Part shown: positions 1,313-7,783 of the stretch, in pieces
How the letters are laid out: every line of letters starts with the position of its first letter
Position numbering within the stretch: position 1 is the stretch's first letter
NCBI GenBank assembly: GCA_016650365.1
Contig: JAENVV010000006.1
Coordinates: 1 to 38,323, forward strand
Direction: 5' to 3'
DNA: 38,323 nucleotides
DNA from: Acidimicrobiia bacterium
Lineage (GTDB): Bacteria; Actinomycetota; Acidimicrobiia; Spongiisociales; JAENVV01
Position numbers and translations under genes: made by a program
Notes under the pieces: generated by a model
What the model saw: only the letters and a program-made list of their open reading frames with translations
What the model was told of the DNA's origin: nothing
Database searches by the model: none

Positions 1313-1421
1313 AAGGTACATCACCACTTCCGAAGCTGTTCTGAAGGTCGTACCCATTCGATAGAGGGCCAATTCACCCGTTGGGAACGAACGCCGCGCC
1401 GAAACTGTCACAGGGGCACGG

Positions 1422-1427
1422 TACGAT
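1422..1427 (+). promoter_or_regulatory. Putative -10 box (TACGAT) of the nurA-herA-sbcD-sbcC operon
   Basis: TACGAT lies seven bases before the ATG at 1435. There is no other promoter-like spacing within the operon, whose genes overlap or nearly touch. The box also argues against the longer frame open from TTG at 1381, because the transcript would begin downstream of that codon. Confidence 0.5.
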
Positions 1428-1434
1428 CGGCGTC

Positions 1435-2385
1435 ATGTTGTACGTTGAAAGTTGGGCCCCCGAATATGGAGCACCGATCGAGCACGATCCTTCGCTTGCT
1501 CCGAGCGAGTCGGTCATAGATCCGACTGTTGAAACAACCGACTGGCGGCCGATCACCCCGGAGTCCTCCGTTGCCGATGCGGTCGAGGCGGTGTGCTTTG
1601 TCGATGGAGTCCGACGCGTCGATGCTCGCTTGACGCTTGACGAACCGGAAGGACCGATTCCGGGCCTCTGTGGTTCGCTCGGGGTTGGTGCGACGCACTG
1701 GGATCGAAGCGTCCCAAGGGCGACGTTTGGGGACATCATGATCGAGCGATTGGCCGTCATCGGGTCGGGTCGGGTCGTCGACGTTCCTCCCGTCGGAAAC
1801 TTGAAGTACGAGGCAGTGTCGGTGGCGGGTACCGACCCGGCCGAGTTGGTTCGGCATTTCCATAATCGGATGCGGAAAGCCGAAGCTGTGCTCTCTTCCC
1901 GTTTGGCGGCCGAAGGGCATCTGGTGATCGCCGACGGTCCAATCAACGAACTGAAGCCCCAATCCGTCATCGGGTACATCAAAACCCACCGGGTCAATTA
2001 CCTGGGCCTTGAAGAGACCGAGGCGGTGCGGAAACTGCTGGCCGGGGACCGGACCCCGATGTTCCTCATGGATGGTCACATTTATGCGAGGTATTCCTGG
2101 TATCTCAAGCTGGCCGATATACCTGGTGGCCATACGTGGTCCGGGGTAGTGCGGTGCGAGGTTCCCGCCTCATTGGGAATTGAACAGGCGGCTATTTATG
2201 CCGACATTGCGGCCGTCCTGCTTCCGCAAACCGCCCCGCCGCTGCACGTTGATCCCCGGGCTCCACAGAATCTCGTGCCGATCGGTGCACTCGAGCGTGA
2301 ACTCCGGCGCAACCTGGGCGACCCCGGACTGGTCTATCGTGCCCTGCGGGAGAGTATTGGTCAGTCGACAAACGGAGCCGCATGA
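1435..2385 (+). CDS. nurA: NurA-family nuclease
   Basis: A predicted 316-residue DNA nuclease of the NurA family, the 5'-3' end-resection nuclease that works with the HerA translocase. Seen: an N-terminal strand with VCFVDGVRR (Asp57), matching the first acidic motif of NurA; a central strand VIADGPI (Asp167) followed by VIGYIKTHR (Lys183), matching the second; and a C-terminal VDPRAPQNLVPIGALE segment that aligns with the family's last motif. These are weak, family-level similarities, strengthened greatly by the directly adjacent herA. The reading frame is open from a TTG at 1381, but ATG 1435 sits seven bases after a TACGAT box and starts the protein MLYVESW. The stop overlaps the herA start by four bases (ATGA), so translation is probably coupled. 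Confidence 0.75.
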   Translation: MLYVESWAPEYGAPIEHDPSLAPSESVIDPTVETTDWRPITPESSVADAVEAVCFVDGVRRVDARLTLDEPEGPIPGLCGSLGVGATHWDRSVPRATFGDIMIERLAVIGSGRVVDVPPVGNLKYEAVSVAGTDPAELVRHFHNRMRKAEAVLSSRLAAEGHLVIADGPINELKPQSVIGYIKTHRVNYLGLEETEAVRKLLAGDRTPMFLMDGHIYARYSWYLKLADIPGGHTWSGVVRCEVPASLGIEQAAIYADIAAVLLPQTAPPLHVDPRAPQNLVPIGALERELRRNLGDPGLVYRALRESIGQSTNGAA

Positions 2386-4097
2386 GCGTCGGGCGAGTCA
2401 TTGGAACGGAAAAGACGTCAACCCAGGTTTTCCGGGTAGTCCTTGACGACGACCAGTACCTGCAACTCGATGATCTGGTCGTCGTGAGAACCCAGGTGCC
2501 CCAGGCCGGGGAGATTGCCACGTATGGCATCGTGACCGAGTCCGAGGCGGTCTATGAAGGGGCTTCATACGAGTCCGATACCTTTCGGATTGCCGAGCAC
2601 GGCATTTTGCCGGCTCAGAAAGTTCGGTCCGCCCAGGTGCAGGTAACCCGGGTCGACCCGGAGGTCTGGGTCTCTCCCGATCCAGGCGAACTGGTCGAGC
2701 GGGCCAGTGGCGAGGCCAGAGACAAGGCTTTGTACGCCGACGAAATGGGCCGCCCGTTGCCGGTTGGGATCGGCCGGGATGGTCAGCCCTTATACGTAGA
2801 TCTTGACTTCTTCGATGGTCGCAAGGGCGGGCACATGTCGATATCGGGGATCTCGGGAGTCGCCACCAAGACCTCCTTCGCGCTGTTTTTCCTCCGGATG
2901 CTGACCGGACGTCGGGACATCGTCGGCGAGAGCGGCGCCAACATGCGAGTGCTCGTGTTCAACGTCAAAGGGGAAGACCTGTTGTGGCTCGACAAACCGA
3001 ACGTGCTCTTTGACGATGATGCTCGAACCAAGTGGGAAGCCCTCGGAGTCGCCCCGACCCCCTTTCCTTCGGTCGGATTTTGGGCGCCTCCCCGCAAGAA
3101 GTCCGGGGACGTACTCCTGGCCGATGTGGCAGGGAGACAAGAAGGGGTACAACCGTTCGCATGGACGCCCCGCGAATTCATCGACGAAGGATTGCTGCGC
3201 TTCCTGTTTACCGACGCCGGCGACAGTCGTAATCAGTTGTCCTTCGTGGAGGAACGGGTCAGATCCCAGTTGCAGCGCTGGGCGGTTGATGTGGTCGGCC
3301 GGCCAGGAGCCGTCGTCATCCGCCAACCACCCGTCGGGGGCTGGCGGCGCGGCGCCGAGGTCAAGTTGGAGCCAGGGGAGCGGATCATCGAAGACCTGCC
3401 GAGTCTTGTCGAGTCCCTCGAAGAGTTTCTCGATCCCCCCGATGGCGAAGAACCGGACCGAACCTGGTCGGGAAGAGTGCAGGGCGGAACCGTCTCGGCA
3501 TTCATGCGCCGGTTGTATGCCGCCCAGTCGCGACTGGGCGAACTCATCCGGGCCGGTGATTCGCATCGGATTGATCGGGCTACGGCCCAGGTGACGGTGG
3601 TGGCGATCCAATCGCTCCACGACCTGGCCCAGCGATTCGTTGTGGGCGCCTTGCTCCAGGAAACGTTTGCCGAGAAAGAACAGACCGGCCAACGACTCCC
3701 CCTCTCGGTGGTGGTTCTTGACGAACTGAACAAGTACGCACCCCGGGAGGGCAACTCCCCGCTCAAAGACATGCTGATCGATATTGCTCAGCGCGGTCGG
3801 TCGCTCGGGGTGCTCCTGGTCGGCGCCCAACAGACGGCTTCACGGATCGCCCAGGAGGTCATGGAGAATGCCGCCATCCGGGTGGCGGGCCGGCTCGACG
3901 CCGCCGAAGCCGAACGCTCGGAGTACGGCTGGATGCTTCCGTCGACCAGGGCGAGGGCGCGCCTGCTGAAACCAGGCACCATGGTCATTTCTCAACCAGC
4001 CATTCCGGTTCCGCTGGTTGTCAACTTCCCGTTCCCACCGTGGGCAACCCGTAGGGAAGAGGTCAGCGAGGACGTAGATCCGTTCGTGGGTCTCTAG
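2382..4097 (+). CDS. herA: HerA-like DNA translocase ATPase (DUF87 type)
   Basis: A predicted hexameric ATPase of the HerA/FtsK superfamily that would pump DNA into or through the NurA nuclease. The first ~100 residues form a beta-rich segment (VVVRT, ATYGIV) compatible with a HAS-barrel. The nucleotide site is around residues 153-165, ISGISGVATKTS, with Lys163; the usual glycine just before the lysine is replaced by threonine and the spacing is unusual. Walker B is VVVLDELNKYAP (Asp447-Glu448). The C-terminal part has LLVGAQQTASRI and RVAGRLDAAEAE, typical of HerA motifs for sensing nucleotide and the arginine finger. The length, 571 residues, is normal. The ATG overlaps the nurA stop and the gene ends three bases before sbcD. 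Function as a NurA partner is inferred from gene order. Confidence 0.85.
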   Translation: MSVGRVIGTEKTSTQVFRVVLDDDQYLQLDDLVVVRTQVPQAGEIATYGIVTESEAVYEGASYESDTFRIAEHGILPAQKVRSAQVQVTRVDPEVWVSPDPGELVERASGEARDKALYADEMGRPLPVGIGRDGQPLYVDLDFFDGRKGGHMSISGISGVATKTSFALFFLRMLTGRRDIVGESGANMRVLVFNVKGEDLLWLDKPNVLFDDDARTKWEALGVAPTPFPSVGFWAPPRKKSGDVLLADVAGRQEGVQPFAWTPREFIDEGLLRFLFTDAGDSRNQLSFVEERVRSQLQRWAVDVVGRPGAVVIRQPPVGGWRRGAEVKLEPGERIIEDLPSLVESLEEFLDPPDGEEPDRTWSGRVQGGTVSAFMRRLYAAQSRLGELIRAGDSHRIDRATAQVTVVAIQSLHDLAQRFVVGALLQETFAEKEQTGQRLPLSVVVLDELNKYAPREGNSPLKDMLIDIAQRGRSLGVLLVGAQQTASRIAQEVMENAAIRVAGRLDAAEAERSEYGWMLPSTRARARLLKPGTMVISQPAIPVPLVVNFPFPPWATRREEVSEDVDPFVGL

Positions 4098-4100
4098 GCG

Positions 4101-5267
4101 GTGAAGATCCTCCATACCTCCGACTGGCATGTCGGCAAAAAGCTGGGCCGATATGACCGTATGGCTGAATACCGCGATGTGCTTGGTGAAGTCGTGCGGG
4201 TGGCCGATGCCGAAGACGTCGATTTGGTACTCGTGTCAGGTGACCTGTTCGACCGGGCGGCGCCCCCGATGGACGCGCTCGCGCTGGTCGTCGAGACACT
4301 GACCGACCTGTCGGGCGATGGGACCCGTCCGGTGGTGGCAGTGTCGGGAAACCATGATTCAGGTCCTCTGTTTGAAGTACTCGATCCGTTGCTGGCTCCG
4401 CTCGGAATCAGGCTGGTTGGAGACGTCAAGCGACCCGAGGAAGGGGGAGTCCTCGCCGTTACGACTCGCAATGGAGACGCGGCGATTGGCTGCTTTCCAT
4501 TCCTGCGTGAAGGGAGAGTTGTCGACTTCATGGAGGAAATGGGTTCTTGGTACGGGACTTATGCCGATCGGGTCCGCCAGATCACGACGGCCTATGCCGC
4601 CCGGGCATCGGAGTTGGCCGGACCTGATGGGGTGGCGTTGTTGGTCGCTCACTTTATGGTGACTGGTGTGCGAGTGGGCGGGCACGGACGGCCCAGAGGG
4701 GAACGGGCGTTGCACATGGGTGAGGCCTATTCAGCGACGTCCCAAGCAGTGCCGACCTCCCTGAGCTATGTGGCGATGGGCCACATCCATGCACCGCAGC
4801 CGATCCCGGGGGCCCAGGTTCCGGCCGAGTACGCCGGGTCCCTCCTCGAACTCGATTTTGGCGAGGCAGGAGAGCGCAAGAGGGTCGTCATCGTTGAAGC
4901 CGAACCTGGCTTACCGGCCTCGGTTCGCTCGGTCCCGTTGTCCGGCGGCCGGCGCCTGATGCGGGCGACTGGCCGATGGGAAGAACTCATCGAACGGCCC
5001 GATCTCGTCGATGCCTTCGTTGATCTCACCGTCGAAACCAACGGTCCTGATCAGGGCTTGGCCGATCGGGCCCGTCAGCACTTCCCATTCCTGGTGAAGG
5101 TCGCTGCCTCCTATGCTCGAGCCGAAGTCGATCGACCGGCGCGGTCCGGACTGGCGTGGGACGAGTTGTATCGAGACTTCGTGACCAAACGGACTGGGGC
5201 CGAGCCGTCCGATGAACTTTTGACTGCATTCCGAACCGTTCTTGACGAAGCTGGGCGCCAGGAGTGA
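4101..5267 (+). CDS. sbcD: Exonuclease subunit SbcD (Mre11 family)
   Basis: The Mn-dependent nuclease subunit of the SbcCD (Mre11-Rad50) complex, which trims hairpins and blocked DNA ends. All phosphodiesterase motifs are present: TSDWHVGK (Asp8, His10), VSGDLFDR, VSGNHDS, LLVAHFMV and MGHIHAPQ. After about residue 270 the capping and SbcC-binding region follows. 388 residues is a normal family length. The start is GTG, three bases after the herA stop, and the last four bases are shared with the sbcC start (GTGA), so all four genes of the run are probably co-translated. The assignment is secure; the link to HerA/NurA is inferred from the operon. Confidence 0.95.
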   Translation: MKILHTSDWHVGKKLGRYDRMAEYRDVLGEVVRVADAEDVDLVLVSGDLFDRAAPPMDALALVVETLTDLSGDGTRPVVAVSGNHDSGPLFEVLDPLLAPLGIRLVGDVKRPEEGGVLAVTTRNGDAAIGCFPFLREGRVVDFMEEMGSWYGTYADRVRQITTAYAARASELAGPDGVALLVAHFMVTGVRVGGHGRPRGERALHMGEAYSATSQAVPTSLSYVAMGHIHAPQPIPGAQVPAEYAGSLLELDFGEAGERKRVVIVEAEPGLPASVRSVPLSGGRRLMRATGRWEELIERPDLVDAFVDLTVETNGPDQGLADRARQHFPFLVKVAASYARAEVDRPARSGLAWDELYRDFVTKRTGAEPSDELLTAFRTVLDEAGRQE

Positions 5268-7783
5268 GACCGGTCACGCTCAAGCTTGACGGCTTTCGCT
5301 CTTATGCCAGCGAGGTCGAGATCGATTGGACCGGGCGCCACCTCGTCGGAATCGTCGGCCCGATCGGCTCGGGCAAATCGACCATTCTCGACGCAGTCTG
5401 TTTTGCCCTCTATGGCAAAACCCCCACTGAAAAGGCCAATCAGCGTTCGCTCATTCACCAGCGCGCCGATGTGGGCAAGGTCGAGTTGGTGTTCGACGTC
5501 GAAGGAATCCGATGGAAATCGGTCAGGGCGCTCCGGCGGAGAGGGCAGAGCCCCCATGCCCTCTATCGCATCGACCCGGATGATCCCGATGGCGAGCCAC
5601 TTGAGACGATTCTCGGCAAGGGGGACGTCGACGCTCGCATCGAGGAGATTCTGGGAGTCGATTTCGATGGATTCAACCGATCGGTCATGCTTGCCCAAGG
5701 TCGCTTCTCCGACTTCTTGAAAGCGGGTAACGCCGATCGGGACAAGACCCTCAAGGGGGTGTTCGGGCTCGACAAGATCGATGTCATGGAGGCGGTCGCC
5801 AAACGTATTCGAGACGAGGCCAAACGTGACCTCGACGAGTTCGGTCGCCGAAAGGCGGACCTTGACAACGTTCGCGCATTGGCCGCTCGGGCCGAGGAGG
5901 CACTCGAAAACGCCACCAAGCGGCTGGAGTCGTTGTGGCTCGTCGAAGCTGATCTTGCCGAAGCCGATCAGCAACGCCAGGCGGAGCAAGCGAAAATCGA
6001 GAAGGCCGATGAGCGCACAGCCGCCCTAAAGTCCATTGCCGCCCGGATGCCCGACCCCGGGAGAAGTCGGGAGATCCTCAGCGAACATGCCGCCCGACAA
6101 GCCGAGCTGGCGCTCGCCAAAAAGCACCTGGAATCACTTACAGCCTCAAGCGTGACCGCCAGACAGAAACGCGCGCACGCCCTGGAATCGGTCGGCGGTG
6201 AAGCCCAACTTGCGGTGGTCCGCCAGCAAGCGGCGCGGTACGACGATGCGCAAGCCGCACGCGAGCGGGAGGTGGAACGCCTGAGCATGGCCGGGTCGAA
6301 CCTTGAGAAGGCTGAGAGCCTGGTAACTCAGACCCGGGCCGAGGCGGATAAAGCGGTCGCGGGCGCTCAGGCGGCGGCGGCGGTGACGCTTACAGCGTCT
6401 GATGCGTTGCGCGGCTCCGAACAAGCTGTCCACGAGGGCCAACATGCCGACATGGCTGCGACACTCCGGGCTGACCTGGCCGTCGGTCATGAATGCCCGG
6501 TCTGTGCCCAACCGGTCGCCGAGTTGCCCAAAGCAGGTCGCCAGCGGGTCGCTCTCGACCAACTCGAAACGGATCGGGACACGGCGCGCCGCGTCCACGA
6601 AGAAGCCGTCGGCTCGGAAAAGATTGCCCTGGCGGGCGCAGCTCGGTCGACCGAAGCGGTTACCAATGCGATTACCAAACTGGAGGAGGCGAAGGCGTCG
6701 GTAGCGGCCGCCACCGATTCGAAAGCTGCGGCCGCCGCGATGGTCGTCGGCATCGAATCCACGTTGTCCGAGGTCCTCGGCGAAGAACCGATCGCCCGGC
6801 TGGCTACGGTCGAAGCGACACTCAAAGCGGCAACGAACGAGATAGATGAGCTCGAAGCTGCCTTGGCCGGAGCGCGGAGCGATGTCGAGCATGGCGCCGG
6901 AGCGGTAGAAAAGGCGCAAGCCGATCTCCGTGCCCTCGCCTCGGTCGTCGTCACCTTGGCTTCCCAGCTCCAGGTCGACCATGACGATGTCGTTGATGCG
7001 GACGGAACCGAGAAGCTCCTCGCGTTGGTCCGTGACATCTGGGTGCGGAACCAACAAGAGGCTTCGAAGGAGCGTGAGCTGGCCGTCGCCGGTCTGGCCG
7101 GTGCCACCCGAGGGCGTGCCGAAGCCATGGAGTCTGTCGGGCTGTCGCCCGACGACGACTTCGGGAAGGCACTCGCCAACGCAGTGGCAGCCGTGGCCGC
7201 CACCCAGCGGGAACTGGATCTTCGTAAAGAACGGCTCGCCCAGTCGGCCGAGCTCGATGAACAGATCACGGCGCGAGAATCGGTGGTCGGGCTCTACGAC
7301 GATCTGGCGAAGGATCTGCGGCCAGGGGGGTTTCTCGGTTACCTGCTGGAAGAAGAGCGGGCCGAGCTCGCCACGGTGGCTTCCGAACAATTCGAACAGC
7401 TATCCGGCGGGCGGTACCGGTTCTCTGATGGAGGAGAGTTCAACATTCTCGACCTCAACGCGGCCGAACTGGTCCGCAAGGCGTCATCACTGTCAGGCGG
7501 TGAGACATTCCTGGCGTCACTCGCGTTGGCCCTGGCGTTGGCCGAGATGGTTGCCAGGGGAAGTGGTCGGCTCGACGCCTTCTTCCTCGACGAAGGTTTT
7601 GGATCCCTGGATGCCGAGCATCTCGACCTGGCGATGGCAGGCATCGAGTTGTTGGTGGCCGGTCATGATGAGCGCCTCGTTGTCATCGTCAGTCACGTAC
7701 CTGACATGAAGGACCGTATCGAGGATCTCATAATCCTCGACAAAGACCCTGGCACTGGCGCCACGATCGTGGTTGGCGGCTGA
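5264..7783 (+). CDS. sbcC: Exonuclease subunit SbcC (Rad50 family SMC-like ATPase)
   Basis: The ATPase and tether subunit of SbcCD. Walker A is GPIGSGKST with Lys38. Two long Ala/Glu/Lys/Arg-rich coiled-coil arms flank a CPVC zinc hook at residues 411-414. The ABC signature SLSGGETF is at about 742-749, and Walker B FFLDEGFGSLD has Asp776 and Glu777. At 839 residues it is shorter than the 1048-residue E. coli protein, and the arms are correspondingly short (about 200-230 residues each). The start is GTG, overlapping the sbcD stop. The TGA stop directly abuts the stop of the convergent gpsA, forming TGATCA, so no room exists for a terminator between them. Confidence 0.95.
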   Translation: MRPVTLKLDGFRSYASEVEIDWTGRHLVGIVGPIGSGKSTILDAVCFALYGKTPTEKANQRSLIHQRADVGKVELVFDVEGIRWKSVRALRRRGQSPHALYRIDPDDPDGEPLETILGKGDVDARIEEILGVDFDGFNRSVMLAQGRFSDFLKAGNADRDKTLKGVFGLDKIDVMEAVAKRIRDEAKRDLDEFGRRKADLDNVRALAARAEEALENATKRLESLWLVEADLAEADQQRQAEQAKIEKADERTAALKSIAARMPDPGRSREILSEHAARQAELALAKKHLESLTASSVTARQKRAHALESVGGEAQLAVVRQQAARYDDAQAAREREVERLSMAGSNLEKAESLVTQTRAEADKAVAGAQAAAAVTLTASDALRGSEQAVHEGQHADMAATLRADLAVGHECPVCAQPVAELPKAGRQRVALDQLETDRDTARRVHEEAVGSEKIALAGAARSTEAVTNAITKLEEAKASVAAATDSKAAAAAMVVGIESTLSEVLGEEPIARLATVEATLKAATNEIDELEAALAGARSDVEHGAGAVEKAQADLRALASVVVTLASQLQVDHDDVVDADGTEKLLALVRDIWVRNQQEASKERELAVAGLAGATRGRAEAMESVGLSPDDDFGKALANAVAAVAATQRELDLRKERLAQSAELDEQITARESVVGLYDDLAKDLRPGGFLGYLLEEERAELATVASEQFEQLSGGRYRFSDGGEFNILDLNAAELVRKASSLSGGETFLASLALALALAEMVARGSGRLDAFFLDEGFGSLDAEHLDLAMAGIELLVAGHDERLVVIVSHVPDMKDRIEDLIILDKDPGTGATIVVGG

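Follow-up and report, generated by a model that had tools for sequence, protein, structure and literature searches.

In Sulfolobus, Mre11 is reported to bind HerA (PMC2288612), and the archaeal set formed by these proteins with Rad50 and NurA is essential in S. islandicus (PMC4351679), which blocks clean genetics. That the four functions share one operon in archaea is already known, as is a bacterial herA-sbcD-sbcC cluster in Oceanithermus (PMC5448004), while bacterial NurA–HerA has been portrayed as limited to a few bacteria without RecBCD (PMC9960219). The role of HerA–NurA is contested: resection is assigned to it in archaea, little or even negative effect on repair is seen in Deinococcus and Thermus, and antiviral degradation was proposed in 2026. 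Here, a nurA-herA-sbcD-sbcC operon of an Acidimicrobiia bacterium (Actinomycetota) is analysed in a window that is one whole contig of 38,323 bases, taken from a 98%-complete genome of 3.49 Mb in 341 contigs. From its sequence, promoter and distribution, we infer that it is probably a chromosomal, DNA-damage-inducible operon that processes double-strand-break ends beside the AdnAB system.

The four genes are contiguous on the + strand from 1435 to 7783, with junctions of −4, +3 and −4 bases, in keeping with the near-gapless operon described in an earlier note made from the letters alone. They encode a bacterial-type NurA nuclease (nurA, 1435..2385, 316 amino acids, ATG start), a bacterial-type HerA hexameric translocase (herA, 2382..4097, 571 amino acids, ATG start), an Mre11-type nuclease (sbcD, 4101..5267, 388 amino acids, GTG start) and a Rad50-type ATPase of the structural maintenance of chromosomes family (sbcC, 5264..7783, 839 amino acids, GTG start). 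The calls draw on homology, key residues and predicted fold for NurA (D57, D167, K183 and R275 being invariant) and HerA, on family models for SbcD, and on family models and motifs for SbcC. Since the quartet is repeated in dozens of loci, the arrangement is more than chance.

The naming of NurA and HerA requires some care. The Pfam NurA and HerA/DUF87 models, which are archaeal-centred, do not match the operon proteins, and Pfam, NCBIfam and PADLOC by themselves gave no NurA or HerA call; the identities came from a search of PDB sequences. Over 560 amino acids (query residues 2–562, E 1e-122, phmmer), HerA aligns with its D. radiodurans counterpart, and NurA matches D. radiodurans NurA (E 8e-24) and T. 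maritima TM1739 (E 1.5e-11). The residues tested in D. radiodurans correspond one to one, with numbering confirmed on the alignments: in HerA, Walker A K163/T164 with K175/T176, the acidic residue D199 of the ASCE (additional strand, catalytic glutamate) fold with D220, Walker B D447/E448 with D487/E488 and the pore/translocation arginines R455 and R512 with R495 and R552; in NurA, D57, K183 and R275 with D53, K201 and R309. All of these are invariant or nearly so among relatives. The AlphaFold model of HerA (mean predicted local distance difference test, pLDDT, 82.6) finds 7wrw as its best match, followed by Thermococcus, E. coli Sir2-type and Sulfolobus HerA, and that of NurA (pLDDT 91.7) has an RNase H-like fold matching 7f6d and 1zup, the template-modelling (TM) scores against D. 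radiodurans being 0.88 for HerA and 0.73 for NurA by query length. By alignment and predicted fold, the pair is thus clearly bacterial-type NurA–HerA, related to the structurally solved Deinococcus pair. The earlier note had proposed profile searches as a check on its naming; the Pfam profiles fail and the identity stands through the D. radiodurans matches, the failure being misleading as a naming test because these proteins are of a divergent bacterial type.

The nuclease–ATPase partners point the same way. SbcD scores 146 bits against TIGR00619 (cut-off 77.65) and at most 50 bits against archaeal Mre11 models; the best family of SbcC is TIGR00618 (sbcc, 224 bits, under the model cut-off of 478.5), with archaeal Rad50 models at or below 78 bits. 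Metallophos, AAA_23 and SbcC_Walker_B are over cut-off for the SbcCD proteins, and SbcC carries a P-loop at residue 32, a CPVC zinc hook at 411, an LSGGE signature at 743 and Walker B at 773. On these family models the pair is bacterial-type SbcCD, and its sbcD is the sole SbcD match in the genome. If the archaeal herA-mre11-rad50-nurA operon had been acquired recently and whole, the presence of the same four functions in one operon would be accounted for; such a transfer is nevertheless highly improbable, given these bit scores, the unmatched archaeal-centred Pfam profiles and a NurA profile search of the PDB that returned bacterial NurA only. A Foldseek search with the NurA model gave no archaeal NurA among its first 50 matches and so lends no independent support to homology with archaeal NurA. 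The housekeeping resection complex resembling the archaeal one that the earlier note had favoured is retained as a chromosomal end-processing module and not as one of archaeal affinity, all four proteins being closest to bacterial-type families.

The distribution of the gene set was surveyed in 148 genomes of the class and in 296 near-complete Actinomycetota genomes, with co-occurrence and linkage counts, and Fisher tests here and below, uncorrected for relatedness. HerA is present in 52 of the 148 class genomes. NurA accompanies it in 51 of these and occurs in none of the 96 genomes without HerA, and SbcD is over cut-off in 51/52 HerA-bearing versus 11/96 HerA-free genomes. In 49/52 carriers, no more than 10 kb separates HerA from SbcD, both being coded on the same strand; the three unlinked cases have the genes on different contigs or no detected SbcD. 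In the phylum sample this HerA is found in 56/296 genomes (19%), with 52 of 58 copies linked to SbcD within 10 kb. The earlier note had held that bacterial HerA/NurA usually stand apart from SbcCD or in defence islands; these counts indicate the opposite for Actinomycetota. Nor do they support rarity of the gene set, and the Oceanithermus cluster was described in 2017.

Two gene orders occur among the fetched neighbourhoods, nurA-herA-sbcD-sbcC as in the studied operon, and herA-sbcD-sbcC-nurA in many Actinomycetota, including Actinoplanes, Catellatospora, Streptosporangium and Frankia; the HerA tree shows a single switch between them (support 99). The quartet is also found in Cyanobacteriota and in Chloroflexota, the latter as metagenome-assembled genomes, and on plasmids of Streptomyces, Sphaerospermopsis, Aulosira and Candidatus Chlorohelix. 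Among these plasmid quartets (L084, L085, L086 and L087), the Streptomyces copy adjoins TIGR02680/TIGR02678/DUF2397 (Wadjet-like) genes and an ImmA/IrrE gene, and the Chlorohelix copy adjoins ImmA/IrrE, a sigma factor and a TIR protein. Second full quartets accompany another herA copy in two genomes (L204 in G275:C15 and L203 in G397:C1), L204 being highly divergent with a HerA 35% identical to that of the operon. A distant HerA-like family in phylum-sample genomes of family code f47 (e.g. G215:C1:2441110-2441781) matches mainly query residues 330–558, with E from about 1e-21 to 1e-35. In one family, an AlkZ-like DNA glycosylase gene lies directly behind herA and ahead of sbcD-sbcC (L057:5732-6895 and L067, in class relatives G109 and G030); AlkZ has a link to interstrand-crosslink repair.

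The four proteins have correlated pairwise distances over 45 loci (r 0.88–0.92), and the operon SbcD falls outside the clade holding 22 of 26 standalone actinobacterial SbcD sequences (support 100, unrooted tree), even for sequences of the same class; by this tree it is a lineage separate from ordinary actinobacterial SbcD. Since the gene set is co-inherited with its own SbcD lineage, the likeliest reading is that of a functional unit. An alternative is that two modules are merely co-transcribed, SbcCD acting on hairpins or crosslinks and HerA–NurA separately, so that linkage would reflect shared regulation and no joint machine. Operon-type SbcD–SbcC pairs whose fetched surroundings contain neither herA nor nurA (L200 in G304 and L201 in G367) make the pair separable, some families have herA and sbcD separated by unrelated genes, and Thermus and Deinococcus have nurA-herA without sbcCD (PMC5448004; PMC8708640). 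However, NurA never occurs without HerA in the class sample, HerA almost never without SbcD, and the operon SbcD is a lineage of its own, which leaves co-transcription alone as an unlikely explanation.

The promoter-like box seen by the earlier note ahead of the operon turned out to be real and conserved in relatives. The predicted promoter, of PafBC/RecA-NDp type (RecA-independent promoter), lies at 1406..1427 on the + strand, reads TGTCACAG-GGGCACGG-TACGAT and is followed by 7 nucleotides (nt) to the nurA ATG, a leaderless layout; the call draws on sequence, conservation in relatives and genome-wide sites, and a sigma-70 consensus scan did not detect it. TGTC is 16 nt from TANNNT; with a transcript beginning at the nurA ATG, it would stand near −26. 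In mycobacteria, the RecA-independent damage promoter has the consensus tTGTCRgtg - 8 nt - TannnT (PMC5656591), and PafBC, activated by single-stranded DNA, engages the −26 motif (PMC11804915). The operon site, cTGTCACAG-N8-TACGAT, agrees with this consensus in the TGTCR core, the spacing, the position and TANNNT, but not in the trailing gtg. The first gene has TGTCR-N11-TANNNT in the 150 bases ahead of it in 25 of 68 loci (15/40 nurA-first and 10/28 herA-first), compared with 6 of 428 upstream regions of flanking genes (Fisher p 1e-18) and 0.28% of random windows. Upstream of recA, in the 21 relatives where its start could be located (8 others were unparsed), the YGTCR form is found in 21/21 and the TGTCR form in 20/21, with an SOS box farther upstream in most.

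In the studied genome itself, TGTCACA-N9-TANNNT gives 16 sites, the operon site among them, versus 0 for a reversed control; in 40 relatives, about 100 sites of the leaderless form were counted, versus one for the control. The sites of the genome include recA, an AdnAB-like pair (motif about 145 nt upstream of the first open reading frame), a UvrD-like helicase, a YifB-family ATPase and DUF222/HNH genes, and many have a start codon 6–7 nt past the −10. The genome also encodes pafA-pafB-pafC (G000:C211), with the helix-turn-helix domain PF19187 in PafC. Membership of the operon in the PafBC (RecA-NDp) regulon is thus well supported as a prediction, and the motif common to the operon and recA strengthens the repair reading and a damage-response role in actinobacteria. 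Several further genes of the genome (L249, L250, L247/L252 and L253) start 6–7 nt behind a damage-type motif, which suggests membership in this predicted regulon; the two that were scanned are of the DUF222/HNH family. Additionally, a flanking gene of about 380 amino acids in Actinoplanes and relatives (L140, L143, L144, L147 and L162) recurrently shows TGTCRGWG...TGATAGTTT in its upstream region, a motif near the canonical PafBC consensus.

The surroundings of the operon are metabolic: a glucose/sorbosone-dehydrogenase-like protein, gpsA, a DUF368-type (VCA0040-like) transporter, short-chain dehydrogenases and other metabolic genes, with an Asp/Glu racemase family protein that is probably murI. 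These neighbours bear on the idea that the complex is a defence system in which SbcCD would recognize the ends of invading linear phage or plasmid DNA and the DNA would be degraded, a task that HerA performs elsewhere in partnership with Sir2 or DUF4297 nucleases. The HerA fold is common to the Sir2–HerA and DUF4297–HerA systems, archaeal HerA–NurA degrades both strands and has been proposed to be antiviral (PMC12977600), plasmid copies lie near Wadjet-type and TIR genes, and presence in the class is patchy (52/148). Yet no Sir2 or DUF4297 gene is found among the scanned genes flanking the operon, as the earlier note had reported, no defence family recurs in more than two members among 123 flanking proteins scanned from relatives, and there is no strong PADLOC or antiphage-HerA match (HerA_antiphage_2 scores 11.5 versus a cut-off of 850). 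The recA-type promoter, the mostly single-copy and chromosomal state of operon-bearing copies and the parallel distances among the four proteins argue in the same direction, and defence is an improbable explanation here.

The genome also encodes the AdnAB-like pair mentioned above, two adjacent UvrD + PDDEXK proteins of 989 and 1031 amino acids. The idea that HerA–NurA replaces AdnAB was rejected in view of this pair and of PDDEXK_1 proteins in 146 of 148 class genomes. As the pair is kept, HerA–NurA is an addition, unlike the situation in Deinococcus–Thermus.

Under the repair reading, a sequence of events can be proposed. On the basis of the motif, the gene content and published PafBC work, DNA damage would generate single-stranded DNA that activates PafBC, which would let sigma-A RNA polymerase start at the 1406–1427 promoter and produce a leaderless four-gene mRNA. 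SbcC–SbcD, as expected from its family, would bind and tether DNA ends and nick or open blocked or hairpin ends. A hexamer of HerA with a NurA dimer as its cap may then load on the opened duplex and pump DNA into NurA by ATP hydrolysis, as D. radiodurans and archaeal biochemistry suggests, and degradation by NurA would leave a 3′ single strand for RecA, or trim the end if both strands are cut; the shared recA-type promoter would fit either product and does not tell one from the other. The complex would act beside AdnAB, which has the same motif upstream. Several observations weigh against this scheme. D. radiodurans withstood mitomycin C and high-dose ultraviolet light better once nurA/herA had been deleted, and in vitro the formation of 3′ tails by its NurA–HerA is weak (PMC9960219). 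HerA–NurA of T. kodakarensis cuts both strands, and the authors doubt end resection and favour roles such as antiviral degradation (PMC12977600). Some quartet copies are plasmid-borne; one of these has Wadjet-type genes next to it, and others have TIR-domain or ImmA/IrrE genes nearby. Many loci lack the motif, whose letters past TGTCR are mostly CACC or CAG, unlike mycobacterial gtg.

A broader proposition, put forward tentatively and with a little less than an even chance of being right, is that many Actinomycetota and some Chloroflexota and Cyanobacteriota possess a distinct break-processing machine, made up of HerA–NurA and an SbcCD lineage of its own, passed on as one unit and, in Actinomycetota, switched by PafBC together with recA, in parallel to AdnAB. 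If true, this would be an additional bacterial end-processing pathway besides RecBCD/AddAB/AdnAB and RecJ–RecQ. The literature searched yielded no report of the wide spread in Actinomycetota, of an SbcD lineage apart from the ordinary one, of the predicted PafBC promoter or of the quartet as a member of the PafBC regulon; older papers may mention bacterial herA-nurA-sbcCD operons. A conserved HerA–NurA–SbcCD unit with a predicted damage promoter shared with recA is now placed in cultured actinobacteria (Actinoplanes, Catellatospora, Streptosporangium and Kineosporia, with the motif seen in some of them), and the role of HerA–NurA could become testable there by deletion, the studied genome having an AdnAB-like pair as well.

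Compared with known systems, the closest proteins are those of Deinococcus radiodurans (PDB 7f6d and 7wrw; PMC9960219), which are of the same bacterial type, with all tested residues kept and matching predicted folds. However, nurA-herA of Deinococcus is not clustered with Mre11/Rad50 homologues (PMC8708640), whereas here it forms one operon with SbcCD, and Deinococcus–Thermus lack RecBCD/AddAB (PMC9960219), whereas an AdnAB-like pair is present here. Oceanithermus profundus likewise has a bacterial herA (hepA) followed by sbcD and sbcC (PMC5448004), a single thermophile case read as recruitment; in contrast, the present gene set is widespread in Actinomycetota, occurs in two orders and has a predicted PafBC promoter. 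The mycobacterial PafBC/RecA-NDp regulon (PMC5656591, PMC11804915) shares the TGTCR core, the 16-nt spacing to TANNNT, recA as a member and pafBC beside pafA, and differs in the letters past the core. Finally, the archaeal operon of Sulfolobus and Thermococcus unites the same four functions in one transcription unit with presumed joint end processing, and its order, given as herA-mre11-rad50-nurA, would be that of the bacterial nurA-last form; the studied proteins, however, are not of archaeal type, and their regulation and partners (RecA, AdnAB and PafBC) are bacterial.

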